A DNA stretch of 11,129 bases from an uncultured Aquabacterium sp. (GTDB lineage Bacteria > Pseudomonadota > Gammaproteobacteria > Burkholderiales > Burkholderiaceae_C), in assembly GCA_937923225.1 (NCBI GenBank), contig CALAKR010000348.1, forward strand, positions 1-11,129, read 5' to 3'. A model generated the notes under the pieces. It made no database searches and was not told where the DNA came from. It saw only the letters and a program-made list of their open reading frames with translations. The position numbers and the translations under genes are program-made. Positions 91 through 11,129 of this stretch are shown in pieces (the first letter of the stretch is position 1; the number at the start of each line of letters is the position of its first letter).

Positions 91-1401
91 TCAGTCGTCT
101 CCGCCGGCCCGCAGACGGCCCACCACGTGCGGCTCGACCACGCTGGCGCGGTTGCCCCAGCTGTCGCGCACATAGGTGGCCACCGCCGCGATCTCGTCGT
201 CCGACAGCAGGTGCGCGAAGGGGGGCATGCCGAAGGGGCGGGGGTTGCCCGCCGTGGCCGGCAAAAAGCCACCCTTGGCGATCACGCGGATCACGTTGGC
301 CGGCTCCGCCATGCGCACGGCCCGGTTGCCGGCCAGGCGCGGGTAGACGTCCGGCACGCCTTCACCCTGCTCACCATGGCAGGCGGCGCAATGCCGCGCA
401 TAGAGCGCCGCCCCCTGGGCCAGGCGTGTGCTGGTGGCGCGCGCCGGTTCAGGTGGCCGCGATCCAGCCGGCGGCAGACTCTTGAGGAAGACCGCCATGG
501 CGCGCAGGTCGGCCTCGCTCAAATGCTGCGTGCTGCGGTAGACCACGTCCGCCATCGGCCCCATCACGCTGCCCTTGGACGTCATGCCGGTGCGCAGCAG
601 GCCCACGATCTCCTGCTCGGACCAGTCGCTCACGCCGGCCTCGTGCGGATCACGCAGCGATGGCGCGTACCAGTTCTGCAGCGGCATCAACCCACCGGCC
701 AGCTCCAGCCCCTGTGACGCGCCCAGCAGGTTGCGCGCCTCGTGACAGGCCGCGCAATGGCCCAGCCCCCGCACCAGGTAGGCACCGCGGTTCCATTCGG
801 CCGTGCGCTCGGGCTCGTCACGGTGCACGCCAGGGCGGAAGTACAGCGCGCGCCACACGGCCAGCGCCGGCTGGGTGCTGAAGGGAAAGGCCAGCTCGTG
901 CGCGCGGTTGGGCGCCTTGACCGGCGGCAGGCTGCGCAGGTAGGCGTAGAGCGCGTCGCTGTCCGCCCGTGTGACCTGCGTGTAGTTGGGGTAGGGGAAG
1001 GCGGGGTAGAGCAGGCGCCCATCGATCGACCGGCCGTTGTGCAGCGCACGCCAGAAGGCGTCGGCCGACCAGCGCCCCAGACCGGTGGCCTCATCGGGCG
1101 TGAGGTTGCTGCTGTAAACCGTGCCGAAGGGCGTGGCCAGAGGGCGGCCGCCGGCATAGGGCGCACCGCCCCGTTCGGTGTGGCAGGTGGCGCAGTTGCC
1201 GGCGCGGGCCAGGTAGGCGCCGCGCGTGATCTGGGCCTCGGTGATGGGGGGCGTGGTTGCCGCGGATGCGAAGCCTTGCGCTGCAGGCACAGGCACTTCA
1301 TCCAGCCGGTTGAGCGACCACACCGTGGCGGTGGCGATGCCCGCCAATGCAGCCAGCAGGGCCAAGGTGATCAGCCGGCGACGGCGTGCCTTGAGGCTCA
1401 T
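91..1401 (-). CDS. Triheme c-type cytochrome, dehydrogenase electron-transfer subunit type
   Basis: A 436-residue protein with an N-terminal Arg-rich stretch and hydrophobic segment (about residues 10-29), which is a signal anchor or signal peptide, so the hemes would lie in the periplasm. Three CXXCH heme sites are visible: C70-C73-H74, C216-C219-H220 and C338-C341-H342. Likely axial methionines are in GPMADVV (280-284) for heme 2 and GMPPFAHLLSD near the C-terminus for heme 3. The first domain has YPAFPYPNY where related subunits often have YPAMPY, so its sixth ligand is unclear. The three-domain layout is that of the cytochrome subunits of membrane alcohol, gluconate and molybdenum aldehyde dehydrogenases, which pass electrons to quinone or a terminal oxidase. 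The start at 1401 is preferred over an upstream ATG at 1500. It has GGAG 6 nt upstream (1408-1411), precedes the signal sequence and overlaps the upstream stop as ATGA. No dehydrogenase subunit is in the window. Confidence 0.9.
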   Translation of the reverse strand: MSLKARRRRLITLALLAALAGIATATVWSLNRLDEVPVPAAQGFASAATTPPITEAQITRGAYLARAGNCATCHTERGGAPYAGGRPLATPFGTVYSSNLTPDEATGLGRWSADAFWRALHNGRSIDGRLLYPAFPYPNYTQVTRADSDALYAYLRSLPPVKAPNRAHELAFPFSTQPALAVWRALYFRPGVHRDEPERTAEWNRGAYLVRGLGHCAACHEARNLLGASQGLELAGGLMPLQNWYAPSLRDPHEAGVSDWSEQEIVGLLRTGMTSKGSVMGPMADVVYRSTQHLSEADLRAMAVFLKSLPPAGSRPPEPARATSTRLAQGAALYARHCAACHGEQGEGVPDVYPRLAGNRAVRMAEPANVIRVIAKGGFLPATAGNPRPFGMPPFAHLLSDDEIAAVATYVRDSWGNRASVVEPHVVGRLRAGGDD

Positions 1402-2162
1402 GGCTGGCTCCGGGGCACACCACCACATGGCATCGGCAAGGGCTGGGGCAGGCTCACCGCCGGCTTGCCGCCCGCCGGCCAAGGCTGGCTGGACAACCAC
1501 GACGCCACGGCACTGACATCATCGGGTGACAGGCGCCGGGCGATGTCGGCCATGCAGTCGGGCGCCTGTGCGCGCCGCCGGCCGTTGTGCCAGGCGCCGA
1601 TCTGCCCGGCCAGGTAGTGGCGCGGCAGACCCAGCAGGCCAGGGATGGCCGGGGCCACGCCCGTCAGCGTCTGGCCATGGCAGAGCACGCAGGCCGGCAG
1701 CCCTTTGGCCGCATCGCCCCGCATGACCAGCCGCTGGCCCCGGGCCAGCACCGCGGCCGATTCGGTGGGGCGGGCAGGTGCCGGGTAGGGCACATCCAGC
1801 GTCGCGAAGTAGCCGGCGATCTCGTGCAGGTAGGCATCGCTCAGGTGGTCGAGCAGGTAGACCATGGGCGCATAGCTGCGCCGCCCGTCACGAAAGTTCA
1901 GCAGCTGGTTGGTCAGGTAGCCTGCGGGCTTGCCCGCCAGGCGCGGGTAGTAACCATCGGGGCCGGCGCGGCCATCGGTGCCATGGCAGGTGGTGCAGGC
2001 ATCGACGCGCTGGCCGATGCTGTCCTGCAAGGGCGACACCGACAGTGGCGCGAGCCCGCCCGCAGGCTGGGAAAAGGCGGCTGGGGCCGCGACAGCGCAA
2101 CACCAAGCCAGAGCCCAGGCGATCCGAGGTCGAAGTCCTTGCATCGGGCCATTGTCGGCCAT
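1398..2162 (-). CDS. Diheme cytochrome c, c4-like
   Basis: About 250 residues with an export signal (RIAWALAWCCAVAAPAAF, ending near residue 31), so periplasmic. Two class I heme domains follow: C56-C59-H60 (CTTCH) and C158-C161-H162 (CVLCH). Each has a likely methionine ligand, M100 in SYAPM and M204 in PDCMADIARRLSPDD. Motifs YYPRLAGK and YLTNQLLNFRDGRR are characteristic of cytochrome c4 and its relatives, which carry electrons between membrane complexes or from dehydrogenases to oxidases. Its stop overlaps the start of the triheme cytochrome by ATGA (1398-1401), so the two are translationally coupled and probably act in one chain. The start is uncertain: ATG at 2162 or ATG at 2144. Neither has a good Shine-Dalgarno, but the later one gives a cleaner signal peptide (MQGLRPR). 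An in-frame stop at 2211-2213 excludes anything further upstream. Confidence 0.88.
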   Translation of the reverse strand: MADNGPMQGLRPRIAWALAWCCAVAAPAAFSQPAGGLAPLSVSPLQDSIGQRVDACTTCHGTDGRAGPDGYYPRLAGKPAGYLTNQLLNFRDGRRSYAPMVYLLDHLSDAYLHEIAGYFATLDVPYPAPARPTESAAVLARGQRLVMRGDAAKGLPACVLCHGQTLTGVAPAIPGLLGLPRHYLAGQIGAWHNGRRRAQAPDCMADIARRLSPDDVSAVASWLSSQPWPAGGKPAVSLPQPLPMPCGGVPRSQP

Positions 2163-2210: not shown

Positions 2211-2855
2211 TCAGTAGCCCACGGTGAAGCGGCGGCGCGAATGGGCCGGCTTGTCCAGCTCGTCGATCAGGGCCACGGCGTAGTCCTGCAGCGAGATGTG
2301 GCTGTTGCCCTGCGCATCGACCAGCAACTGGTCACCCCCCAGACGGAACTGGCCAGTGCGCTGACCGGGCTCGATCATGGCCGAGGGGCTCAGGAAGGTC
2401 CAATCCAGCACAGGCTCGGCACGCAGCAGTTCCAGCGCCTGGCGGGCACCTTCGGCCGTGCCCTTCCATTGGGCGGGGAAATCAGGGCTGTCCAGCAGGA
2501 TCTTGCCGGGGGCCACCTCCAGCGTGGCCGCGCCGCCCACCACGAGGAAGCGGGGCACGCCGGCAGCCTTGACCGCCGCCAGGATGCTCTTGAAGCCCTT
2601 GACGTAGTAGTCCAGCGTGTCGGCCTGGGCATGGCCGCTGAAGGCCGAGATCACGGCGTCGAAACCCTGGCCCTTGAGGGCAGCGGTGAGGGCGGCGGTG
2701 TCAGTCACGTCCACGCCCTGGGCGCTGACCTGGCCGGTGGTGGCCACGCGCTCGGGGCGCGAGACCAGGGCGGTGATGGTGTGGCCACGGGAAGCGGCTT
2801 CCGCCAGCAGGTGGGTGCCGATGAAACCGGTGGCGCCGATGATCGCGATCTTCAT
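2211..2855 (-). CDS. NmrA-like NAD(P)-binding oxidoreductase
   Basis: A 214-residue cytoplasmic protein of the atypical short-chain dehydrogenase (NAD(P)-binding, NmrA/YwnB-like) group. The N-terminal Rossmann motif is IGATGFIG (residues 6-13), with further family marks at VISAFSGH (68-75), FLVVGGAATLEV (103-114) and the C-terminal ISLQDYAVALIDELDKP. It lacks a clear YxxxK catalytic pair, as many members do, so a redox-sensing or reductase role on an unknown substrate is all that can be said. The start at 2855 has AAGGA 8 nt upstream (2864-2868). An ATG at 2957 in the same frame would add 34 residues without Rossmann character and run into the control region, so it is rejected. The gene is divergent from the LysR gene and only 48 bp upstream of the diheme cytochrome on the same strand, so readthrough into the cytochromes is possible. 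Confidence 0.88.
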   Translation of the reverse strand: MKIAIIGATGFIGTHLLAEAASRGHTITALVSRPERVATTGQVSAQGVDVTDTAALTAALKGQGFDAVISAFSGHAQADTLDYYVKGFKSILAAVKAAGVPRFLVVGGAATLEVAPGKILLDSPDFPAQWKGTAEGARQALELLRAEPVLDWTFLSPSAMIEPGQRTGQFRLGGDQLLVDAQGNSHISLQDYAVALIDELDKPAHSRRRFTVGY

Positions 2856-2974
2856 GATGGATGTCCTTCGGGTTGGAACGATGGGTTCGTGATGGGTGAA
2901 TCTTGCGCCCCTCGATTGATTCGATAAAGACCCCGATAGACAATTCATTGTTTCCATATGATTGACAATCGCGC
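2856..2974. promoter_or_regulatory. Divergent control region between NmrA-like and LysR genes, with palindrome
   Basis: A 119-bp intergenic stretch between two divergently read genes, clearly more AT-rich than its surroundings in its right half (about 2911-2970). It contains ACAAT-TC-ATTGT (2940-2951), a perfect 5-bp inverted repeat with a 2-bp centre that extends imperfectly outward. A related half-site, ATTGACAAT, lies at 2961-2969. This is the expected place for a LysR-type regulator to bind and control both its own gene and the divergent one. No convincing sigma-70 promoter can be picked by eye in either direction. The operator call is inference from position and symmetry. Confidence 0.55.
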
Positions 2975-3886
2975 ATGGCCACCATCGACACCCTGAACCT
3001 GAACCACCTGCTGGTCTTCGCGGCCGTGGTGGAGGCCGGCAGCTTCACGGCCGCGGCGGATCGGCTGGGCCAGACCAAGGCCCGCGTGAGCCTGGTGCTG
3101 CGTGAACTGGAGGGGCAACTGGGTGGCGCCCTGCTCACGCGCACCACGCGCCGCCTGGCCCTGACCGAACTGGGCCAACAGGTATATGGCGAGTGCATCC
3201 CGCCCCTGCGTTCCGTGCAGGACACGGTGGCGCACCTGGGCCGTGACGACGGGCCGCTCAGCGGCACGCTGCGCATCACCGCGCCGGTGGACCATGCGGC
3301 GCAGTCGCTGGCCCCCGCCCTGGCGCGCTTCGCCATGCTGCACCCGGCCCTGCACATCGACCTGCGCGCCACCGACCAGCGCGTGGACCTGGTGCGCGAA
3401 GGGCTGGACCTGTCGATCCGCGTGGGCTGGCTGCGCGACTCCACCCAGCGGGCCCTGAAGCTGGGCGGCTTCGAACAATGGGTGCTGGCCAGCCCCGACT
3501 ACCTGCACCGGCGCGGCATGCCCAAGCAGCCCAGCGACCTGGCCGAGCATGACTGGGTGGCACTGAGCCTGCTGCCCTCGCCGCTGACCTGGACCTTCTC
3601 CCACGCCCGACGCGAGGCGCAGACGGTGCGCATGACCAGCCGCCTGCGCGTGGACTCCGGCGCGGCGCTGATGGCCCTGCTGGAGCACGGCATGGGCCTG
3701 TCGGTCACGGAGCAGTTCAGCGCCGCCAAGGCCCTGCGGGATCGCCGTCTGGTGCGCGTGCTGCCCGATTGGCAGGCGCCCTTCGGCGGCATCCACGCGG
3801 TCTACCCGCCGGGGCGGCAGGCGCCACCGGCACGGGTGCGGGCCTTCGTCGAGTTCTACCGTGAGTGGTTGAGCAAGACGGGTTGA
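2975..3886 (+). CDS. LysR-family transcriptional regulator
   Basis: 303 residues, the usual length for the family. The N-terminal winged helix-turn-helix covers about residues 8-66: LLVFAAVVEAGSFTAAADRL, then the recognition region TKARVSLVLRELE, then LLTRTTRRLALTELG. The effector-binding domain runs from about 90 to the C-terminus (GTLRITAPV, PALHIDLRAT, DLSIRVG). This overall pattern resembles the CrgA/AaeR-type LysR group, many of which regulate a divergent oxidoreductase gene. It would bind the intergenic palindrome and regulate the NmrA-like gene; the co-inducer cannot be inferred. ATG at 2975 fits the family start, but no Shine-Dalgarno is visible before it. Its stop at 3886 lies 6 bp from the stop of the leftward FAD oxidoreductase, so it is convergent with the Nit1C operon and not part of it. 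Confidence 0.93.
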   Translation: MATIDTLNLNHLLVFAAVVEAGSFTAAADRLGQTKARVSLVLRELEGQLGGALLTRTTRRLALTELGQQVYGECIPPLRSVQDTVAHLGRDDGPLSGTLRITAPVDHAAQSLAPALARFAMLHPALHIDLRATDQRVDLVREGLDLSIRVGWLRDSTQRALKLGGFEQWVLASPDYLHRRGMPKQPSDLAEHDWVALSLLPSPLTWTFSHARREAQTVRMTSRLRVDSGAALMALLEHGMGLSVTEQFSAAKALRDRRLVRVLPDWQAPFGGIHAVYPPGRQAPPARVRAFVEFYREWLSKTG

Positions 3887-3892
3887 CGGCGC

Positions 3893-5227
3893 TCAGGCCG
3901 CCATCGCCATCTGCACATGCGTGGGCTTGGTCCCGACCGTGGCCGAAGACAAGGGCGGACACAACTCGCGCTGCGCATCGATGCGATCGGCCAGGAAGGC
4001 CGCATCACGCGACACGCCCGAGAAGCGGCCCGAGCCCCAGGTGTACTGCCAGGGCAGGCCCAGGAAGTACAGGCCCTTCTGCTGCGTGACGCCACGCGTG
4101 TGCACGGGCTGACCCCGACCGTTGAAAACGGGCGCATCCAGCCATTCGAAATCGGGCCGAAAGCCAATGCACCAGATCACGCTGGTGATGCCGGCGGCCT
4201 GCAGGTTCAGGCTGAGTTGCTCGCCATCGGGCTGCCACACCGGCTCGTACACCGACGGTGGCGGTGCATCGATGCCCTGCGCGGCAATGTACTTGTCGAT
4301 GCTGGCGTTGATGCCGTTGTAGACCTGGTCGGCGCGGTCCAGTGCGGCTTGCAGGCCCGGCTCGAACTGCATCACACCATCGTCCAGCCCTGCCAGCAGG
4401 CCGTGCAGCTGCATGCCTTCGGCGGCGAACTTGCGCAGGTCGATGTCTCGTCCGCCATCGCGGCCGGTGACGTAGTGGTTGGTGTTGTCGCGCACGCCCT
4501 CGCGCAGCGGATGCTGGTGCACGGGCATGTCGTAATAGTTCATGTCGGCCAGCCAGTCGACCACGTCGCGGCCCCGGTAGAAGCGCGCACAGCGCGGTGC
4601 ATCACCCACAGCCAGGTGCACCTTGCGGCCGGCCAGGTGCAGGTCTTCGGCGATCTGCGAGCCGGACTGGCCCGAGCCCACCACCAGCACGGCACCCTCG
4701 GGCAAGGACTGTGGGTTGCGGTACTGCTCGGAGTGCACCTGCACGATGCCTGCAGGCAGGCGCTCGGCCAGGCGCGGCACGATGGGCACGTGGTAGCCGC
4801 CCGAGGCCACCACCACCTGGTCGGCCGTGCAGACCATGGCCTGGCCACCTTGCACGGTGTGCACCTCGAAGCCACCCTGCGGGCGCGGCAGCACCCTGCG
4901 CACGGCCACGCCTTCACGCAGCGGCGCGTTCACGCTGCGCTTGAAACCGGCCAGGTAGTCGTTGATCTGATCCTTCTTCATGAAGCCGTGCGGGTCGTCA
5001 CCCGCGTAGGGGTGGCCGGGCAGCTTGCACTGCCAGTTGGGCGTGACCAGGCAGAAGCTGTCCCAGCGCTGGGTACGCCAGCTGTGCATGGCCGTGTGCT
5101 TCTCGAAGACGACGTGGTCGGCGCCGATTTTCTGCAGGTAGTGGCTCATCGACAGGCCGGCCTGGCCGCCGCCGATGATGACGACCTCGTGGTGTTCAGG
5201 GATGCGGGGGGTGGCTGGAGCGTTCAT
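3893..5227 (-). CDS. nitH: FAD-dependent oxidoreductase of the Nit1C cluster (MSMEG_0569 family)
   Basis: A 444-residue flavoprotein related to CzcO/FMO-type monooxygenases. The FAD-binding Rossmann motif is [10 protein letters not shown] (16-25) and the NAD(P)H-binding one is [15 protein letters not shown] (182-196). The intervening [13 protein letters not shown] (160-172) resembles the FMO-type linker with HSxxY. The C-terminal part has [10 protein letters not shown] (351-360) and [18 protein letters not shown] (388-405), which are typical of the MSMEG_0569 family found only with Nit1-type nitrilases. It probably oxygenates or oxidises the pathway's nitrogen compound using FAD and NAD(P)H; the substrate is unknown. 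The start at 5227 has GAGGA 7 nt upstream (5235-5239). It is the last gene of the operon, 91 bp after nitG. That is the largest gap in the run, so a secondary promoter or processing site could lie there, although I see none. The letter nitH follows pseudomonad cyanide-growth nomenclature. Confidence 0.93.
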
Positions 5228-5318
5228 GGTGGTGTCCTCGCTGGCGCTGGGGGCGCATGGGTTTGGCTGTGTGGCGGTGAAGGAAGGTGCGGTGGTGGAT
5301 AACGTAGGGCGGCGCGGA

Positions 5319-5606
5319 TCAACTGCGGAAATCGATCACATGCACGCGGGCATCGGGCTGGTGCCTGAAGCGGGCGGCTCTCTCGTCGATCTCGGCCCAC
5401 TGGTCCATGGCGCGCGAGCAGGCGAAGCCGTACTTCGCGCGCACGCGTTCGGAGGCGATCTCCAGCGCCTCGCGGGTGCGGGCCAGGAAGTCGGTGAGCG
5501 GGTAGTCGGTGCCGGGCACCAGGTAGTCCTGCACGACCAGCGACGGTGAATAACAGGTGCTGTCGCTGCCATCGGGCCAGCGCACCTTGAAGAGCATTTC
5601 AGGCAT
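5319..5606 (-). CDS. nitG: Small Nit1C-cluster protein, MSMEG_0570 family
   Basis: A 95-residue protein of the MSMEG_0570 nitrogen-starvation family. The protein opens MPEMLFKVRWPDGS, contains YSPSLVVQDYLVPGTDYPL and ends VHVIDFRS. It has no signal peptide, membrane segment or catalytic motif that I recognise. Its biochemical role is unknown, and it occurs as a constant member of Nit1 clusters. A longer in-frame reading from 5789 would add 61 residues of low-quality sequence. The start at 5606 is chosen because AGGAG sits 7 nt upstream (5614-5618) and it matches the compact family length. The start overlaps the glycosyltransferase stop by 8 nt (5599-5606), indicating coupled translation. Equivalence to nitG of pseudomonads is by cluster position and family, and is reasonably sure. 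Confidence 0.9.
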   Translation of the reverse strand: MPEMLFKVRWPDGSDSTCYSPSLVVQDYLVPGTDYPLTDFLARTREALEIASERVRAKYGFACSRAMDQWAEIDERAARFRHQPDARVHVIDFRS

Positions 5607-6993
5607 GGAGGGGCTCCTGCGGAAGCAGTGAGGTGAAGGGCAGGGTCGAAAGGCTGTGCATCGGTGGCTGCGAGCTGGATGAAGCGTCCTGGCCATCGCG
5701 GTAATGCCGTTCGTGCAGTTCGGCGCTGCGTGACCAGGCGAAGCGGGCGCAGACATCGGGCGCGGCATCGAGCACGGGCACGCGGGCATCAGCCCGCAGG
5801 CTCAGGCGCAGCGCACGGGCCAGGTCGGCCACGCTGAGCGGATCGGCCCACAGGGTTTCGTGCAGCGCCAAGTGGTCGGTGAAGGGCCGGATGCGCGAGA
5901 CGATGGCCGGCGTACCGCAGGCCAGGGCTTCGAGCACGACCAGGCCGAAGCCTTCGCGCAATGAAGGCATGGCCAGTGCGGTGGCGCGGCGGTACAGGGC
6001 TGGCAAGGCCGCATCGGGCAGGGGGCCGGTCAGGTGCACGCGGGCACGGGTGGCTTCGGGCAGCGCGTTCAGCGTGGCATGGAAGCAGGCTGCATAGGCG
6101 TCGTGGTCGAGCAGGCTGGCACCGCCGGCGATCACGAGGCGGGCGTCGGGATGCGTGGTCGGTGTCGTTGTTGTTGTCGGCGTGGCGTCAAGGGCGCCGG
6201 CTTTGTCGAAGGCCACCACGTCGTCCAACGTGATGCCACCTTGCACCGCCGCGAAGGCGCGCAGCAGGCGCTCGGGGTTCTTGCGTTCCTCAATGCCGCC
6301 GACGGACAGCCACAGGGGGCCTGTGTGGCTTGGATCCAGGCCCAAGGCGCGCAGTTGGGCATCGTCCTGGGCGGTCTGCTCCGGGTCACCGCTGGCGGGC
6401 GTGAAGCGCACCGTGTCCACGCCATTGGGCACCAGGCCCGCGTCGCGCTGCCATTGGTCTTTCAGCACACCCTGCCACAGTGGGCTCACGCACAGCAGGC
6501 GGCTGGCATCGCGCACACCGCGGGCCTGCCAGGCTGTCAGCACCGGGTCGTCGAACGTGTCCAGGTGGTGCACGGTGCGCGTGAAGCCGGCGATGCGGCC
6601 TTCGGTGCGCAGGCGGGCCAGCGCATTGGCGGTGATGCTGTCCTGCGAGTGAAGCACGTCGAAGCGGTCCAGGCCCGGCAGATCACGCAGGTGGCGGGCG
6701 ACGGCATCGATGCGGGTGGCGACCATCGCTGCAAGGGGTGACAGTGGTTGACCATGACCAGCGTCTGCATCGTCATGCAAGAACGGTGACACCAGGCTGC
6801 CACTCGGCGCCGGCAACATGGCCAAACTCAAGACCGCTCGCGTCTCGCGGAACAGGCGCTGCCCCTCAGCCGCGGGCGCGATCAGGGTGACCTGGTGTCC
6901 GCGCTCGCACAGCGCATCGGCCAACGCCAGGGTGTGTACCACGCCGCCACGAGGGTTCAGTGAGTGCATCAGCAGGGCAATGCGCAGGCTCAT
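5599..6993 (-). CDS. Family-4 glycosyltransferase of the Nit1C cluster (MSMEG_0565 family)
   Basis: 464 residues with the GT-B fold. The N-terminal acceptor domain begins MSLRIALLMHSLNPRGGVVH (Gly-rich loop at 14-18). The C-terminal donor domain has LWLSVGGIEERKNPERLLRA (227-246) and the E-x7-E signature E347-E355 in REGFGLVVLEALACGTPAIV. It should be a cytoplasmic retaining transferase using a nucleotide-sugar donor; neither donor nor acceptor can be told. It carries a low-complexity Thr/Pro insertion (about 271-280) just before RLVIAGGASLL, and a Ser/Pro-rich tail (436-464) beyond the last GT element. The start at 6993 has GGGAGG 4 nt upstream (6998-7003) and overlaps the nitF stop as ATGA (6990-6993). 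Pseudomonad Nit1C clusters as I recall have no letter for this gene, whereas mycobacterial ones include it. Confidence 0.9.
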   Translation of the reverse strand: MSLRIALLMHSLNPRGGVVHTLALADALCERGHQVTLIAPAAEGQRLFRETRAVLSLAMLPAPSGSLVSPFLHDDADAGHGQPLSPLAAMVATRIDAVARHLRDLPGLDRFDVLHSQDSITANALARLRTEGRIAGFTRTVHHLDTFDDPVLTAWQARGVRDASRLLCVSPLWQGVLKDQWQRDAGLVPNGVDTVRFTPASGDPEQTAQDDAQLRALGLDPSHTGPLWLSVGGIEERKNPERLLRAFAAVQGGITLDDVVAFDKAGALDATPTTTTTPTTHPDARLVIAGGASLLDHDAYAACFHATLNALPEATRARVHLTGPLPDAALPALYRRATALAMPSLREGFGLVVLEALACGTPAIVSRIRPFTDHLALHETLWADPLSVADLARALRLSLRADARVPVLDAAPDVCARFAWSRSAELHERHYRDGQDASSSSQPPMHSLSTLPFTSLLPQEPLHA

Positions 6994-8045
6994 GCGGCCT
7001 CCCGCCTGGCAGCTTCGCGCGCACGAGCGCCGATGAAGTCATGTGCGCCCAGATCCCACAACAGCGCCTTGCCATCCTTGGCATCGCGCAGCCAGCACTG
7101 CGGCTGCGCGGTGATCTCGCCGATGGCCTCGCAGGCAATGCCACGTGCATGGAAGCGCCCACACACCTCCGCCACGTTATCAGGCGCCACCGACAGCAGG
7201 TAGCCGTAGCTGGGGAAAGCCGTCAGCCAACGCAGCGCGTGCGCATGGCAGGCGTCGCTGGGCGAGTAGCCCGAGGGGCAGGGGATGCGGTCCACGTCGA
7301 TCACGGCGCCCACGCGCGAGCACTCCAGCAGCATCAGCGCGGTGCCCAGGCAGCCGGCCATGCTGATGTCCTTGGCGGCGCGGCACAGGCCGGCCTCGGC
7401 CAGCTCAGGCAGCAGGGCCAGGTCGGCGCGCAGGCGCTCGGCCGGCATGGTGGTAGAGGCGTTCCAGAAGGGATAGGGCTCTTCCCAGCGGCCACGCAGG
7501 TCCACGGCCATCAGCAGTTGCTCGCCGGGGCGGGCTGCGAAGCTGGACAGCAGGCGCTTGGCGCGCCCCAGCACGGCCACGGCCAGCTGCCCGCGCGGCG
7601 CACGGTGGTTGCTGTGCCCGCCCACGATGGGCACGCCATAGGCTGCCGAGGCGGCAGCCATGCCCTGCAGGATGGGCTCGGCCTGGCCCGCGCCATCGCT
7701 CCACAGCGCATCGACCACGGCGATGGGGCGACCACCCATCGCGGCGACGTCGCTCAGGTTGACCATGATGGCGCTGTAGCCCGCGAACCAGGGCATGCGC
7801 GCAACGAAGTCGTCCACCAGGCCTTCGATGGCCAGCAGCAGGTGGCCATCACCGTTGGCATCGGGGATGGCGGCGCAGTCGTCGCCCAGCAGCACGCCGT
7901 CGCCGGAAGACAGGGTGGTGTCGGCCAGGCCGCCAGGCAGCGAGCGGGCCAGCACGCCCACCGCGTCGGCGATGTCGCGCTTGTGCTCGAAGCCCCGGCT
8001 GGCGCGCAAGGCCACGACCAGTTCGTTGAGGTCGAAGGCGCTCAT
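6990..8045 (-). CDS. nitF: AIR-synthase-like ATP-binding protein of the Nit1C cluster (Sll0787 family)
   Basis: 351 residues with the PurM/SelD/HypE/ThiL superfamily layout. The N-terminal ATP-binding half has GDGVLLGDDCAAI (48-60), IMVNLSDVAAMGGRP (93-107) and VGGHSNHRAP (141-150). The C-terminal half has RAAKDISMAGCLG (222-234), the counterpart of the ATDITGFG-type motif. Known superfamily members activate an oxygen or formyl group with ATP so that nitrogen can attack, or make selenophosphate. By analogy this protein could phosphorylate an amide- or formyl-like intermediate, but no activity is shown. The start at 8045 has a strong AGGGAGG 6 nt upstream (8052-8058) and overlaps the nitE stop as ATGA (8042-8045). 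A reading from 8342 adds 99 residues entirely inside nitE and is a shadow. In mycobacteria the GNAT and AIR-like parts are, as I recall, one protein, which fits the coupling here. Confidence 0.92.
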   Translation of the reverse strand: MSAFDLNELVVALRASRGFEHKRDIADAVGVLARSLPGGLADTTLSSGDGVLLGDDCAAIPDANGDGHLLLAIEGLVDDFVARMPWFAGYSAIMVNLSDVAAMGGRPIAVVDALWSDGAGQAEPILQGMAAASAAYGVPIVGGHSNHRAPRGQLAVAVLGRAKRLLSSFAARPGEQLLMAVDLRGRWEEPYPFWNASTTMPAERLRADLALLPELAEAGLCRAAKDISMAGCLGTALMLLECSRVGAVIDVDRIPCPSGYSPSDACHAHALRWLTAFPSYGYLLSVAPDNVAEVCGRFHARGIACEAIGEITAQPQCWLRDAKDGKALLWDLGAHDFIGARAREAARREAA

Positions 8046-8659
8046 GAGCGGCCTCCCTGGGCGGACGACAAGGTCAGGTAGCCCCACTCGGGCTCGGCAC
8101 AGGGCGGGTAATGCGGCAGGCTGGCCTGCATCAGGCCATGCACCCGGCCATGCAGCACCACCTCGCGCTGCAGCTGCCAGTGCAGGCGCTGAAACAGCGG
8201 CACGTTCTGCGCCTGCACGTGAGCCCAGAACTGCCGGGCACCTTGCGCATGCGCCATGCCCACGGCCAGACGGATCAGCGTGGCACCCAGCCGCCCGTGG
8301 TGGCGAAATGAGGGATGCACCGCCAGGCGCGATCCCCACCACACGCCCGGCTCAGCCTGGTGGATGCGCACGGTGCCCACGACCTGGTCCGCCTCGCCGG
8401 CCACGCAGGCGCAGGCCACGAGCAAGGTGGCGTGATCGTCGATGGCATCACGGTCGTCGCCCACGAACACGCCCTGCTCCACGCAGAACACGGCGCGGCG
8501 CAGCGCATGGGCATCACGCCGTTCCCAGGCCTGCGTGGCCTGCTTGACGCGGAACGCCGTGGGCACGAAGGCCGCGGGCAGGTCGCAGAAATCGTCCGTG
8601 CGCCAGGCCCGTGCGGCCGGTGCGGCATCGATCAGGGCGGTCGTGCTGGAGAAGGTCAT
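8042..8659 (-). CDS. nitE: GNAT acetyltransferase of the Nit1C cluster (MSMEG_0567/Sll0786 family)
   Basis: 205 residues. GNAT elements appear in order: FCVEQGVFVGDD (58-69), the central strand VVGTVRIHQ (93-101), the acetyl-CoA pyrophosphate loop SRLAVHPSFRHHGRLGATLI (110-129, R/Q-x-x-G-x-G/A at 119-126), and the late motif NVPLFQRLHWQLQ (152-164). The C-terminal HYPP and EWGYL stretches are family-specific. It should transfer an acetyl or other acyl group from CoA to an amine in the pathway; the acceptor is unknown. The start at 8659 has GGAG 5 nt upstream (8665-8668) and leaves a 46-bp gap after nitD. The in-frame extension to 8908 is Arg/Ser/Cys-rich shadow sequence inside nitD. It is coupled to nitF by an ATGA overlap, and the partnership of these two domains is recurrent in Nit1C clusters. 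Confidence 0.92.
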   Translation of the reverse strand: MTFSSTTALIDAAPAARAWRTDDFCDLPAAFVPTAFRVKQATQAWERRDAHALRRAVFCVEQGVFVGDDRDAIDDHATLLVACACVAGEADQVVGTVRIHQAEPGVWWGSRLAVHPSFRHHGRLGATLIRLAVGMAHAQGARQFWAHVQAQNVPLFQRLHWQLQREVVLHGRVHGLMQASLPHYPPCAEPEWGYLTLSSAQGGRS

Positions 8660-8705
8660 GGCGGCTCCGTGGTTCAGGTCCAAGGGCGTGCGAAACGTGA
8701 GGCGC

Positions 8706-9911
8706 TCAGGCCTCGAACATCGACAGCGACGAGCAGGCGCCGCACTTGCCGCAGCCCGCCTTGATGTCAGACGAACGCAGGCCCGCTGCCGCCACCATCG
8801 CGCCCAGCGGCTCCAGCACCGAGCGCATGAAGGCCGGGTCGGGCGCCGGGTGGCCTTCGAGCGGCGTGCCGCTGATGGGCACGAAGGGCACGACGAAGGG
8901 ATAGACACCCAGGTCCAGCAGGCGCTGGCTCATGTCCAGAATCGCTTCGCGCGTGTCGCCCAGGCCGGCCAGGATGTAGGTGCTGACCTGGCCGCGCCCG
9001 AACACCTTGACGGATGCCTCGAAGGCACTGAAGTAGCGCGACAGCGGCACGCTGGCCTTGCCCGGCATGATGCGCTGGCGCACTTCGGGCATGACGGCTT
9101 CCAGGTGCATGCCCAGCGTGTCCACGCCAGCCTCTTTCATCCGCGTGAACCACGCGTCGTCGTCCGGCGGCTCGCACTGGGCCTGGATGGGCAGGTCCAC
9201 GGCGGCCCTGATGGCACGGGCGCTGTCGGTCAGGATGGCCGCGCCGCGGTCGGGCGTGGGCGGCGTGCCGGTGGTCAGCACCATGTGCTTGACACCGTCG
9301 AGCTCGACCGCCGCGCGCGCCACCTCGGCCAGTTGCTCGGGTGTCTTGCGGGCGATGGTGCGGCCGGCCGCCAGCGACTGGCCGATCGAGCAGAACTGGC
9401 AGGTCTTGCGGCGGCTGTCGTAGCGGATGCAGGTCTGCAGCACGGTGGTGGCGAGCACGTCCCGACCGTGCAGAGTGGCGATGTGCGAGTAGGGGATGCC
9501 ATCCGCCGTGCTGCGCGCATAGAAGCGCGGCGTCTTGGGGAACTCGATGCGCGCGATGGGGATGCTGGCGTGGCGAAGCACGCTGGTGCCGTCCGCGCCC
9601 GGGGCCTCGGCCACGAAGGGCGAATCCCAGGCGGGCGCGGTGTGCACGGGCACCATCACCGTCACGCCGTCGATGGTGACGGCCTTGTGGTCCGAAGGGC
9701 CTGCGCCGCCACGGCGGCTGGCCAGGCCCGCACTGGGGTCGATCAGGCGCAGGCCACGCGATTGCAGCTCGGTCATCAGGCGGCGGGCTTCGGCCGAGGG
9801 GCCTTGGCCGTGGATGGCCGGCGCAGACACTGGCTGCTCGCGCACAGATGACGGCGCGGCCGCCTCCACGTCGTCAAGCGACGCGGGCAAGAGGGCTTCG
9901 CTCAGGCTCAT
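8706..9911 (-). CDS. nitD: Variant radical SAM protein of the Nit1C cluster (MSMEG_0568 family)
   Basis: 401 residues. The radical SAM cluster motif has unusual spacing, C161-x9-C171-x2-C174 ([14 protein letters not shown]), instead of CX3CX2C, as in the MSMEG_0568 family. TTGTPPTP (213-220) takes the place of the GGE SAM-binding motif, and the TIM-barrel continues through [10 protein letters not shown] and [12 protein letters not shown] second cysteine set, C387-x2-C390-x2-C393, lies nine residues from the C-terminus and could hold an auxiliary iron-sulfur cluster. The expected reaction is a 5'-deoxyadenosyl-radical step on the pathway intermediate; the substrate is unknown. The start at 9911 has GGGAG 8 nt upstream and makes the gene overlap nitC by 38 nt. 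The first 45 residues are Ala/Ser/Pro-rich and look poorly conserved, so ATG at 9776 is an alternative, but it lacks a ribosome site. Confidence 0.93.
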
Positions 9912-10917
9912 GGCTGGAACTCCCGAAGGGTTGGGGCTGTGCGGTCGTTGTCAACGCATCGCTTGGGGTGCTGATCGGTGCCGAACGGAAGGCCTCGCGC
10001 ACGGGCGAGGTCTCGCGGCCATCCATCACCAGGCTCAACAGCTCGGGCCGCGCGTAGTGGCCCACCGAATCCATCATGCGTTTGCGCTTGGTGATCAGGC
10101 TCATGTCCAGGTCGGCGATCACCATGCCTTCGCCCTCCTTCAAGGGCGGCGCCAGGTGCACGCCCTCGGGCGAGACGATGGCCGTGCAGCAGCCGCCACG
10201 CAGCGCCTTCTGCAGGCCCGCATCGGGCGTGAGCGACTGGATCTGCGCATCGGTCAGCCAGCCGGTGCTGTTGATGACGAAGCAGCCCGATTCCAGCGCG
10301 TGGTGGCGGATCGTCACCTCCATCTGGTCAGCGAAGATCGGGCCGACCAGCGAACCGGGGAACTGCGCGCAGTGGATTTCTTCATGGCCAGCCATCAGCG
10401 CGTAGCGCGCCAGCGGGTTGTAGTGCTCCCAGCAGGCCAGCGCGCCCAGGCGGCCCACGGCCGTGTCCACCACTTTGAGCCCGCTGCCATCGCCCTGCCC
10501 CCACACCATGCGCTCATGGAAGGTGGGCGTGATCTTGCGGCGCTTGAGCACCAGGGTGCCGTCGGCATCGAAGACCAACTGCGTGTTGTAGATGGTGCCG
10601 TGGTCGCGCTCGTTGACGCCCAGCACCACGACGATGCCGTGGGCACGGGCCTGCTGCGCCACCGCGTCGGTCACGGGCCCGGGCACCACCACCGCGTGCT
10701 CGTACAGCTTCATGTGCTCGGGGCCACTGGCCACGGGCGGTCGAATGAACGAGAAGTAGGGGTAGTAGGGCACGAAGGTCTCGGGGAAGACCACGATCTG
10801 CGCGCCCTGCCCAGCCGCCTGTGCGATGGCTTCGCAGACCTTGTGCAGCGTGCCTTCGGCCTCGCCCAGCACGGGCGAGATCTGCACGGCCGCCGCCTTG
10901 ATGATGCGTGTGTTCAT
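9874..10917 (-). CDS. nitC: Nit1-type nitrilase (Sll0784 family)
   Basis: 347 residues of the carbon-nitrogen hydrolase superfamily, cytoplasmic. The catalytic set is visible: E46 in [15 protein letters not shown]128 in KRRKITPT, the structural E136 in HERMVWG, and the nucleophile C162 in [21 protein letters not shown] after the cysteine marks a true nitrilase rather than an amidase. The family converts nitriles to acid plus ammonia. In pseudomonads the Nit1C nitrilase is required for growth on cyanide, but its physiological substrate was not settled to my knowledge. The catalytic core ends at [10 protein letters not shown] (289-298), after which a Ser/Thr/Pro-rich tail of about 45 residues overlaps nitD. 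The start at 10917 has GAGGT 7 nt upstream (10925-10929). It follows the Sll0783-like gene by 42 bp, the standard cyanobacterial and pseudomonad order. Confidence 0.95.
9920..9924 (-). promoter_or_regulatory. Ribosome-binding site of nitD, inside nitC
   Basis: GGGAG read on the minus strand, 8 nt before the ATG at 9911. It lies inside the nitC coding sequence and is the main reason to prefer the long nitD start, with a 38-nt gene overlap, over the internal ATG at 9776, which has no purine-rich sequence before it. Confidence 0.6.
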
Positions 10918-10959
10918 GAAGATGACCTCACGGTGGCGCTTGAACGCTGATGAAGGCGC

Positions 10960-11129
10960 TCAGAGCGTCCAGGTGTCCAGGATGAAGGCGTTGGACTTGC
11001 GGTGCAGCAGGATGATGTCCAGCACGTCCAGCGGGTTGATGGGCTTGATGCCTTCGATCAGCGAGCCTTCGCCATGGCCGTACAGGGCCTGCAGCGCGAA
11101 GCGGCAGGCGTAGACCTTGCCGCCCTCCT
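10960..11129 (-). CDS. nitB: C-terminal part of an Sll0783/MSMEG_0572-family nitrogen-starvation protein
   Basis: The gene enters from the right edge and its last 55 codons plus the stop (10960-10962) are visible. The residues include [20 protein letters not shown], then [17 protein letters not shown] and the end AFILDTWTL, which I recognise as the conserved C-terminus of the MSMEG_0572/Sll0783 family. In Synechocystis sll0783 is strongly induced by nitrogen starvation and its loss impairs polyhydroxybutyrate formation. Its biochemical activity is unknown. It is the first gene of the cluster seen here and sits 42 bp upstream of nitC, as expected. The start codon, the ribosome site and the operon promoter are outside the window. 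The letter nitB follows pseudomonad usage. Confidence 0.88.

Follow-up and report, generated by a model that had tools for sequence, protein, structure and literature searches.

Nit1C has been on record as a conserved gene cluster since 2005, and the account given then (Podar 2005, PMC1199592) describes a glycosyltransferase (GT) between ORF5 and ORF6 of the Burkholderia and Rubrivivax Nit1C clusters. A deletion of the eight-gene gpr operon (MSMEG_0565-0572) of M. smegmatis has been made and characterised (Yang et al. 2018, PMC6039565); the operon is induced by nitrogen starvation, and MSMEG_0565 is annotated elsewhere as a putative glycosyl transferase (PMC4222082). The Pseudomonas nit1C operon, nitA-nitBCDEFGH (PMC11049912, PMC8567248), is described as having seven structural genes. 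All eight families already have NCBIfam names; the eight-gene architecture was known before, as was the puzzle over its chemistry. The links to nitrogen starvation and to growth on cyanide cited in the preliminary description of the present locus hold in the published work. A requirement of the cluster for growth on cyanide or at low nitrogen is documented in Pseudomonas and, as a biofilm phenotype, in M. smegmatis.

The window, i.e. the whole stretch of DNA analysed (11,129 bases, an entire contig of an uncultured Aquabacterium sp.), carries a betaproteobacterial Nit1C operon, one of those with eight genes including the GT. Coordinates and NCBIfam models give a single minus-strand run, NitB(end)-NitC-NitD-NitE-NitF-GT-NitG-NitH:

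10960..11127, minus strand: NitB, MSMEG_0572/Sll0783 family, last 55 residues (TIGR04044 positions 105-159 of 159, 91.6 bits)
9874..10917, minus strand: NitC, Nit6803-type nitrilase, 347 aa (TIGR04048, 584 bits, cut-off 502.6)
8706..9911, minus strand: NitD, MSMEG_0568 family radical SAM protein, 401 aa (TIGR04043, 606 bits)
8042..8659, minus strand: NitE, MSMEG_0567/Sll0786 family GNAT acyltransferase, 205 aa, inferred start MTFSST (TIGR04045, 216 bits)
6990..8045, minus strand: NitF, sll0787 family AIR-synthase-like protein, 351 aa, inferred start MSAFDL (TIGR04049, 448 bits)
5599..6993, minus strand: MSMEG_0565 family GT4 glycosyltransferase, 464 aa (TIGR04047, 404 bits in three stretches)
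5319..5606, minus strand: NitG, MSMEG_0570 family, 95 aa, inferred start MPEMLF (TIGR04042, 137 bits)
3893..5227, minus strand: NitH, MSMEG_0569 family flavin-dependent oxidoreductase, 444 aa (TIGR04046, 680 bits)

Seven of the eight families exceed their NCBIfam cut-offs; the NitB fragment falls under that of TIGR04044 (109.85) because the contig end cuts the gene. These family matches, together with a gene order like that of Podar 2005, bear out the identification as Nit1C. The Nit6803-type nitrilase, radical SAM protein, acetyltransferase, AIR synthase, ORF6 of about 100 aa and flavoprotein of that account are all present by NCBIfam cut-offs, and by coordinates they follow its order 1-2-3-4-5-(GT)-6-7 on one strand with few intergenic bases. 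From the Burkholderia and Rubrivivax clusters as described there, where the GT follows ORF5 (AIR synthase) and precedes ORF6 and the flavoprotein closes the series, the window differs only in organism and in the cut NitB. The M. smegmatis operon has eight ORFs, as in the window, but its published description includes an aliphatic amidase (0566), a nitrilase-like protein (0571) and control by GlnR. The Pseudomonas operon shares its seven structural genes and their order with the window; unlike the window, it has no GT among the genes listed, and its divergent upstream regulator is the sigma-54-dependent NitA rather than the MocR type of the other Proteobacteria analysed here. Nearest in the core tree were Aquabacterium olei and a Burkholderiales MAG. 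The Nit1C cluster of A. olei plasmid pTB101 (L043), the nearest row (80% identity over 1443 core-alignment columns), has the same eight genes in the window's order, but is complete, with an upstream divergent MocR-type gene and other downstream genes.

The seven whole genes are tightly coupled, with spacings (in bases, some starts being inferred) of +42 (B-C), -38 (C-D), +46 (D-E), -4 (E-F), -4 (F-GT), -8 (GT-G) and +91 (G-H). Departures from columns at least 95% conserved in relatives are so few that the genes look intact: 1/141 in NitC, 1/165 in NitD, 0/40 in NitE, 0/63 in NitF, 2/82 in the GT, 0/18 in NitG, 0/107 in NitH and 0/25 in the NitB fragment. The preliminary description had reported a complete eight-gene operon in one minus-strand run. 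The single run, all eight families and their order stand, but completeness does not, as nitB runs off the contig end, leaving 55 of about 160 residues. No further NitB pieces were found across the source assembly (505 contigs, 53.76% complete). With the contig breaking off within nitB, the window includes neither the promoter nor whatever regulator may lie upstream. At the other end, a LysR gene (2975-3886, plus strand) lies 3' of nitH; it is convergent with nitH and divergent from an NAD(P)-binding gene, and was rejected as the operon's regulator.

Conserved motifs are retained in several of the proteins. NitC has FPETF at residue 44, KRRKI at 125 and CWEHY at 162, which we take to be the Glu-Lys-Cys site, and its closest PDB relative is 3wuy (509 bits). 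Conserved cysteines of NitD are at 161, 171 and 174 (CX9CX2C) and at 246, 387, 390 and 393; in relatives, too, NitD shows extra conserved cysteines. NitE carries RHHGRLG at residue 119, the GT EGFGLVVLE at 347, and NitH GGGQAG at 19 and GSGQSG at 184. Against the methanogenesis marker 2 model (TIGR03267), NitF also scores 200 bits, under the cut-off of 365, in a match that spans model positions 1-319 of 323. The AlphaFold pLDDT of NitG is 95.7. Modelling of a NitB relative (not the window's own protein) predicts a DsrE/TusD fold. Cys113, invariant among 38 NitB proteins and retained in the window, presumably corresponds to the TusD/DsrE active-site cysteine. The evidence on this fold, as well as that on MocR, promoter and LnmK-type genes below, comes from relatives and lies outside or beyond the window.

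A comparison of clusters with and without the GT, which the preliminary description had called for, showed the gene present in 65 of 98 scored loci and absent from 33, with 12 state changes on the core tree; the GT-less loci include a clade of 19 mainly Rhodobacterales rows. Two loci (L075, L124) were unscored as their contigs end first, L090 had too few core genes for the tree, L048 duplicates the L049 record and was left out, and the identical L074 and L138 were both counted. In 398 genomes the GT family exceeded its cut-off ten times, each time adjoining NitD. The gene occupies one fixed slot and its divergence parallels that of its neighbours, for which reason a recent chance insertion was rejected. 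The 12 state changes fit an optional step; a glycosylated product, which the preliminary description had suggested as one possibility beside a glycosylated intermediate, is only putative. A 2024 Pseudomonas paper gives the cyanotroph operon, in its operon description, as seven genes without a GT, and the sugar step therefore looks dispensable for growth on cyanide. The Nit1C families do co-occur, the reverse of the loss of linkage that the preliminary description had named as evidence against it.

A divergent MocR-type gene was found at 90 of 100 related loci, mostly by tblastn likeness and including low-identity matches (22-23%) at L113 and L123. Among the ten others, upstream sequence is scant or missing for L045, L090 and L110; the gene of L046 lies on the operon's own strand, the L104 locus is rearranged, and no match appeared at L047, L057, L065, L067 or L143. 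Both genes tested, from L043 (divergent) and L046 (upstream, same strand), contain a GntR DNA-binding domain (PF00392) and an aminotransferase-like domain (PF00155); their best NCBIfam match was EhuR (378 and 367 bits, under the cut-off of 480). Known MocR-type regulators bind amino compounds. Between nitB and the MocR-type gene, a sigma-54-type site stands before nitB in 69 of the 90 MocR-bearing loci (10 of 90 also have one on the opposite, MocR-ward strand), and a repeated ATTGnnYGnA motif occurs in 77; motif discovery and counting used the same 90 regions. As the loci are related to one another, neither these counts nor the other locus counts are independent. Among the loci examined, the sigma-54-type site was missing in Paracoccaceae, Roseobacteraceae and some others. 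The window's nearest kin have the site with 1-2 mismatches, and the motif is scarce in them (one copy in L043, two in L125, two in L115, one in L112, none in L105); 4 of 15 phylum-sample loci had fewer than two copies. A search for MocR in the window's incomplete genome gave no match. The sigma-54-type sites, as predicted from sequence, are consistent with nitrogen control.

Downstream of nitH, an LnmK-type gene continues 34 of 80 Nit1C clusters, and the other 46 have none within 1.5 kb. Two of these genes exceed the TIGR04098/TIGR04099 cut-offs (L044, 304/351 bits; L045, 184/194 bits), the other calls being made by tblastn or from names in the records. A methylmalonyl-CoA mutase occurs in a few of the LnmK-bearing clusters, and acyl-CoA-ligase-like genes adjoin some clusters. 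LnmK-like genes are also found outside Nit1C (in the 398 genomes, two of the five cases that exceed the cut-off), as well as in a Thalassospira ACP/acyl-AMP-ligase cluster; none was matched in the window's incomplete genome. The actinobacterial clusters analysed, on two Rhodococcus plasmids, lack Nit6803 and carry two CN-hydrolases instead, have GNAT fused to AIRS, and end with the GT; one of the two CN-hydrolases still scored best with an archaeal nitrilase model.

The preliminary description held that the enzymes look more like building or modifying a small molecule than plain nitrile hydrolysis. The GT, the MocR-type regulator, the LnmK, mutase and ligase neighbours and the Rhodococcus CN-hydrolases lend this comparative support, while its chemistry stays conjectural. 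At roughly one in two, we favour a pathway under nitrogen-limitation control for making or remodelling a small molecule derived from an amine, with nitrile (or amide) hydrolysis by NitC as one step among several. Sigma-54 would turn the operon on under nitrogen limitation and MocR would gate it by a PLP-bound amino compound. NitE might then acylate the amine and NitF use ATP to activate a carboxamide or carboxylate; the skeleton could be modified by NitD, possibly given sulfur by NitB, and by the flavoenzyme NitH, with ammonia released from a C-N bond by NitC. The GT may attach a sugar as optional tailoring, and in some lineages an LnmK-type enzyme could add or process a propionyl unit. More tentatively, proteobacterial Nit1C as a whole may be a sigma-54- and MocR-gated biosynthesis of an amine-derived, acylated and often glycosylated nitrogen-starvation metabolite. 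On that view the radical SAM enzyme would receive sulfur through NitB, some lineages would attach a propionyl unit by means of LnmK-type enzymes, and the nitrilase activity of NitC would allow growth on cyanide as a by-product, not as what the cluster is for. If Nit1C does make a small molecule, a nitrogen-starvation metabolite still to be described would be encoded in genomes from marine picocyanobacteria to soil bacteria, and the connection of Nit1C with cyanide would have to be read anew. A practical route to it is suggested by the motif, the promoter-like site and the regulator, leading from the MocR ligand among amino compounds to the metabolite.

Against the small-molecule pathway, the Pseudomonas data (PMC11049912, PMC8567248), in which NitC is needed for growth on cyanide and the operon proteins are induced by a cyanide-containing residue and 3-cyanoalanine, fit plain nitrile assimilation. 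In a scavenging operon, cyanide and 2-oxoacids would form cyanohydrins, which NitC would hydrolyse to acid and ammonia, leaving accessory roles (protection, substrate supply, repair) to the other proteins. Such a role is described for Pseudomonas pseudoalcaligenes/oleovorans and likewise for P. fluorescens, in marine picocyanobacteria the reported habitats of the cluster are warm waters, replete in iron and especially poor in N, and nitrogen control would suit it too. Scavenging leaves unexplained the lasting linkage of six or seven unrelated enzymes across many families, the retention of a GT by two thirds of the loci (65/98), the MocR-type, LnmK or mutase neighbours, and the other CN-hydrolases in Rhodococcus, and we regard it as possible but doubtful. 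Improbable, in our view, is that the operon mainly lifts the NADPH/NADP ratio under nitrogen starvation. In M. smegmatis (PMC6039565) gpr affects NADPH level, peroxide resistance and biofilm growth, expression giving higher NADPH/NADP and peroxide resistance and deletion abolishing the resistance, and a Synechocystis sll0783/PHB paper names excess NADPH in its title; however, no step obviously makes NADPH, the effect may be indirect, and the M. smegmatis authors describe single genes as not assignable. An obligatory glycoside as the final product, which the GT's fixed slot and constant pairing with NitD (10/10) would favour, is very improbable given its 33 absences and 12 tree changes, the 19-row clade and the Pseudomonas clusters listed without it, and its mean pairwise identity of 54%, which makes it the least conserved protein of the operon.

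In the 398 genomes, the radical SAM model gave 138 matches at E 0.001, only 16 of them over the cut-off, and the weak ones were rejected as Nit1C members; the block between E 1e-36 and 1e-23 consists mostly of ORFs of about 880 aa.

The window is an entire contig of a fragmented genome (53.76% complete, 505 contigs), and from position 3893 to the contig end its minus strand carries seven whole genes and the end part of one more; every one of them corresponds to a separate NCBIfam family, and seven models were exceeded at their cut-offs. The preliminary description of this run as a Nit1C operon was correct except in calling it complete, as NitB is reduced to its last 55 residues because the contig ends there, and no further pieces of it were found in the same 53.76% complete genome. 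Adjacent operon genes overlap by 4–38 bases or are separated by gaps of at most 91 bases. The starts of NitE (8659), NitF (8045) and NitG (5606) were placed at the onset of the family matches, the longest open reading frames starting upstream. The encoded proteins retain the highly conserved columns of their relatives with hardly any exceptions, and the window is another member of an already known cluster type. The truncated gene and the genes flanking the operon are listed below.

Features of the window outside the seven whole operon genes
91–1500, minus strand: cytochrome c gene, beyond the NAD(P)-binding gene
1398–2162, minus strand: cytochrome c gene, adjoining the first with a 103-base overlap
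2211–2957, minus strand: NAD(P)-binding gene, divergent from the LysR gene
2975–3886, plus strand: LysR gene, convergent with nitH, the ends of the two genes 6 bases apart
10960–11127, minus strand: NitB/Sll0783, last 55 residues, NCBIfam family match below its cut-off

None of the LysR, NAD(P)-binding and cytochrome c genes belongs to the recurrent Nit1C neighbours in the loci compared. The best NCBIfam score of the LysR gene was to YafC (180 bits, cut-off 470), and the two cytochrome c genes (nt 91–2162) matched no NCBIfam model over its cut-off. Another contig of the same genome carries a second strong CN-hydrolase (G000:C309:65-850, 183 bits to PF00795).

The linkage of the glycosyltransferase (GT) to the cluster was assessed in 398 genomes drawn evenly across the phylum, the window's own genome being counted. 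With about four GT candidates scored per genome, NitD (TIGR04043) exceeded its cut-off in 16 genomes and GT (TIGR04047) in 10, the window's genome being in both sets; all 10 GT genomes lie within the 16, with GT near NitD on the same contig. Among the 100 related loci read (5 plasmid, 80 genome-contig and 15 phylum-sample), 65 bear GT, and in 64 of these it occupies the slot NitF-GT-NitG, the sole exception being Rhodococcus. GT is the least conserved protein (mean pairwise identity 54%; NitB, 82%; NitC and NitD, 76%), and over 63 eight-gene loci its identity correlates with that of NitF (r 0.91) and NitD (r 0.87). A FastTree reconstruction from five core proteins had 100 rows, of which 98 were scored for GT (65 with, 33 without), and gave long-branch warnings for loci L047, L143 and L046. 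On it, GT presence/absence requires 12 changes, 11 forced by starred branches, vs 27.7 in shuffles. While the tree itself cannot separate gain from loss, the simpler reading is that GT represents an old optional step that has been repeatedly lost, since its slot is fixed and its divergence parallels that of its neighbours.

In 90 of the 100 loci (14/15 in the phylum sample) a MocR-like gene is oriented divergently from nitB at a distance of no more than 1.5 kb. Both upstream genes checked, in Aquabacterium olei pTB101 (L043, divergent) and Acetobacter (L046, on the nitB strand), specify GntR and aminotransferase domains. The ligands of MocR-type regulators are amino compounds, bound in the form of PLP adducts. 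A -24/-12-type site (consensus TGGCAC-N5-TTGC) was found on the nitB strand with at most one mismatch in 69 of 90 intergenic regions, vs 0–2 per shuffle (20 mononucleotide shuffles), 10 on the opposite strand and none in reversed sequences; it is also present in 14/15 phylum-sample loci. Within the 80-locus set it was absent from Paracoccaceae (0/6), Roseobacteraceae (0/6), Aurantimonadaceae (0/2), Methylococcaceae (0/2) and single members of other families. Of the 90 regions, 85 contain the motif ATTGnnYGnA and 77 contain two or more copies of it (8 and 2 in one shuffle; 0 for two copies when reversed), counts that are descriptive as the motif was found and counted on the same data. Adjacent copies are most often 12 bases apart and equally oriented (22 of 186 pairs), and 11/15 phylum-sample loci have at least two copies. 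The window's nearest kin are poor in the motif (L043, 1; L125, 2; L115, 2; L112, 1; L105, 0). Three Rhizobium loci (L057, L065, L067) have no adjacent MocR gene yet retain several copies and the sigma-54-type site. A literature search found no published link of Nit1C to MocR or to LnmK.

NitF belongs to the PurL/ThiL/SelD superfamily, members of which spend ATP on substrate activation. It also aligns with nearly the whole model of methanogenesis marker 2 (nt 6990–8045; TIGR03267, 200 bits, cut-off 365), and the NitB model gave matches in the control genomes of Synechococcus elongatus and Methanosarcina acetivorans, over the cut-off in one of the two; Nit1C may be linked to methanogen marker genes. 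The next relatives of NitD are the LipS2 and PylB models and HydE structures (E 2e-4), and the protein has a second cluster of conserved cysteines.

Nit1C was described by Podar et al. 2005 (PMC1199592), and the eight-gene operon of M. smegmatis was deleted by Yang et al. 2018 (PMC6039565); PMC4222082 gives MSMEG_0565 of this species as a putative glycosyl transferase. Cyanobacteria are reported to carry a seven-gene cluster (PMC10119275, PMC9716671). Papers on Pseudomonas (PMC11049912, PMC8567248, PMC6368324) report that cyanide cannot be assimilated without the nit1C cluster and its nitrilase; GT is missing from their gene lists. Plain cyanide assimilation, the chief rival explanation, accounts for NitC but leaves the other genes unexplained. 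The best-supported reading is that Nit1C would be a pathway under nitrogen control that works on a small molecule derived from an amine, with GT as an optional tailoring step and a sequence of reactions that we infer. The small-molecule chemistry proposed in the preliminary description is partly supported by the regulator, promoter-site and GT comparisons, useful additions that derive from relatives of the window and not from the window itself.

The cluster is extended or altered in several relatives. An LnmK-like gene follows nitH within 1.5 kb in 34 of the 80 genome loci, and the two that were checked against TIGR04099 and TIGR04098 score above both cut-offs. A methylmalonyl-CoA mutase gene comes next after it in L044 and L146 (over the mutase cut-off in L044), and in Acetobacter L046 an acetate/propionate-CoA-ligase-like gene comes after nitH. 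Across the 398 genomes, LnmK-like proteins were over the cut-off in five cases, three of them in Nit1C carriers; in Thalassospira the gene lies among ACP and acyl-AMP-ligase genes, away from Nit1C. Two Rhodococcus plasmids lack the Nit6803 nitrilase and carry two other CN-hydrolases instead; the best models for those of L047 are N-carbamoylputrescine amidase and archaeal nitrilase, with scores far below both cut-offs. An amidase and a nitrilase-like ORF are likewise named in the M. smegmatis operon paper (PMC6039565). The Hansschlegelia cluster (L062, nt 8378–13498) is naturally reduced: NitB, NitC, NitD, NitH and an LnmK-like gene are present, and tblastn found no NitE, NitF, GT or NitG between NitD and NitH. 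According to PMC7029842, annotations of a Nit6803 nitrilase and an MSMEG_0572 protein occur in 111/136 reference genomes and in 0/19 B. cepacia isolates from the space-station water system, which might be an informative natural loss. On a Methylocystis plasmid (L148, nt 6170–19700) the genes are dispersed, with GT and NitB apart from the rest and NitB on the opposite strand. The Nit1C of L070, recorded as "Solirubrobacterales bacterium 70-9", groups with alphaproteobacterial ones, reflecting either mis-binning or transfer. A plasmid-collection listing gave NitD relatives in 513 plasmid records (373 Klebsiella, 30 Escherichia), and the record AP014882.1 (nt 149237–150310) labels its Nit1C radical SAM gene NifB, apparently in error.
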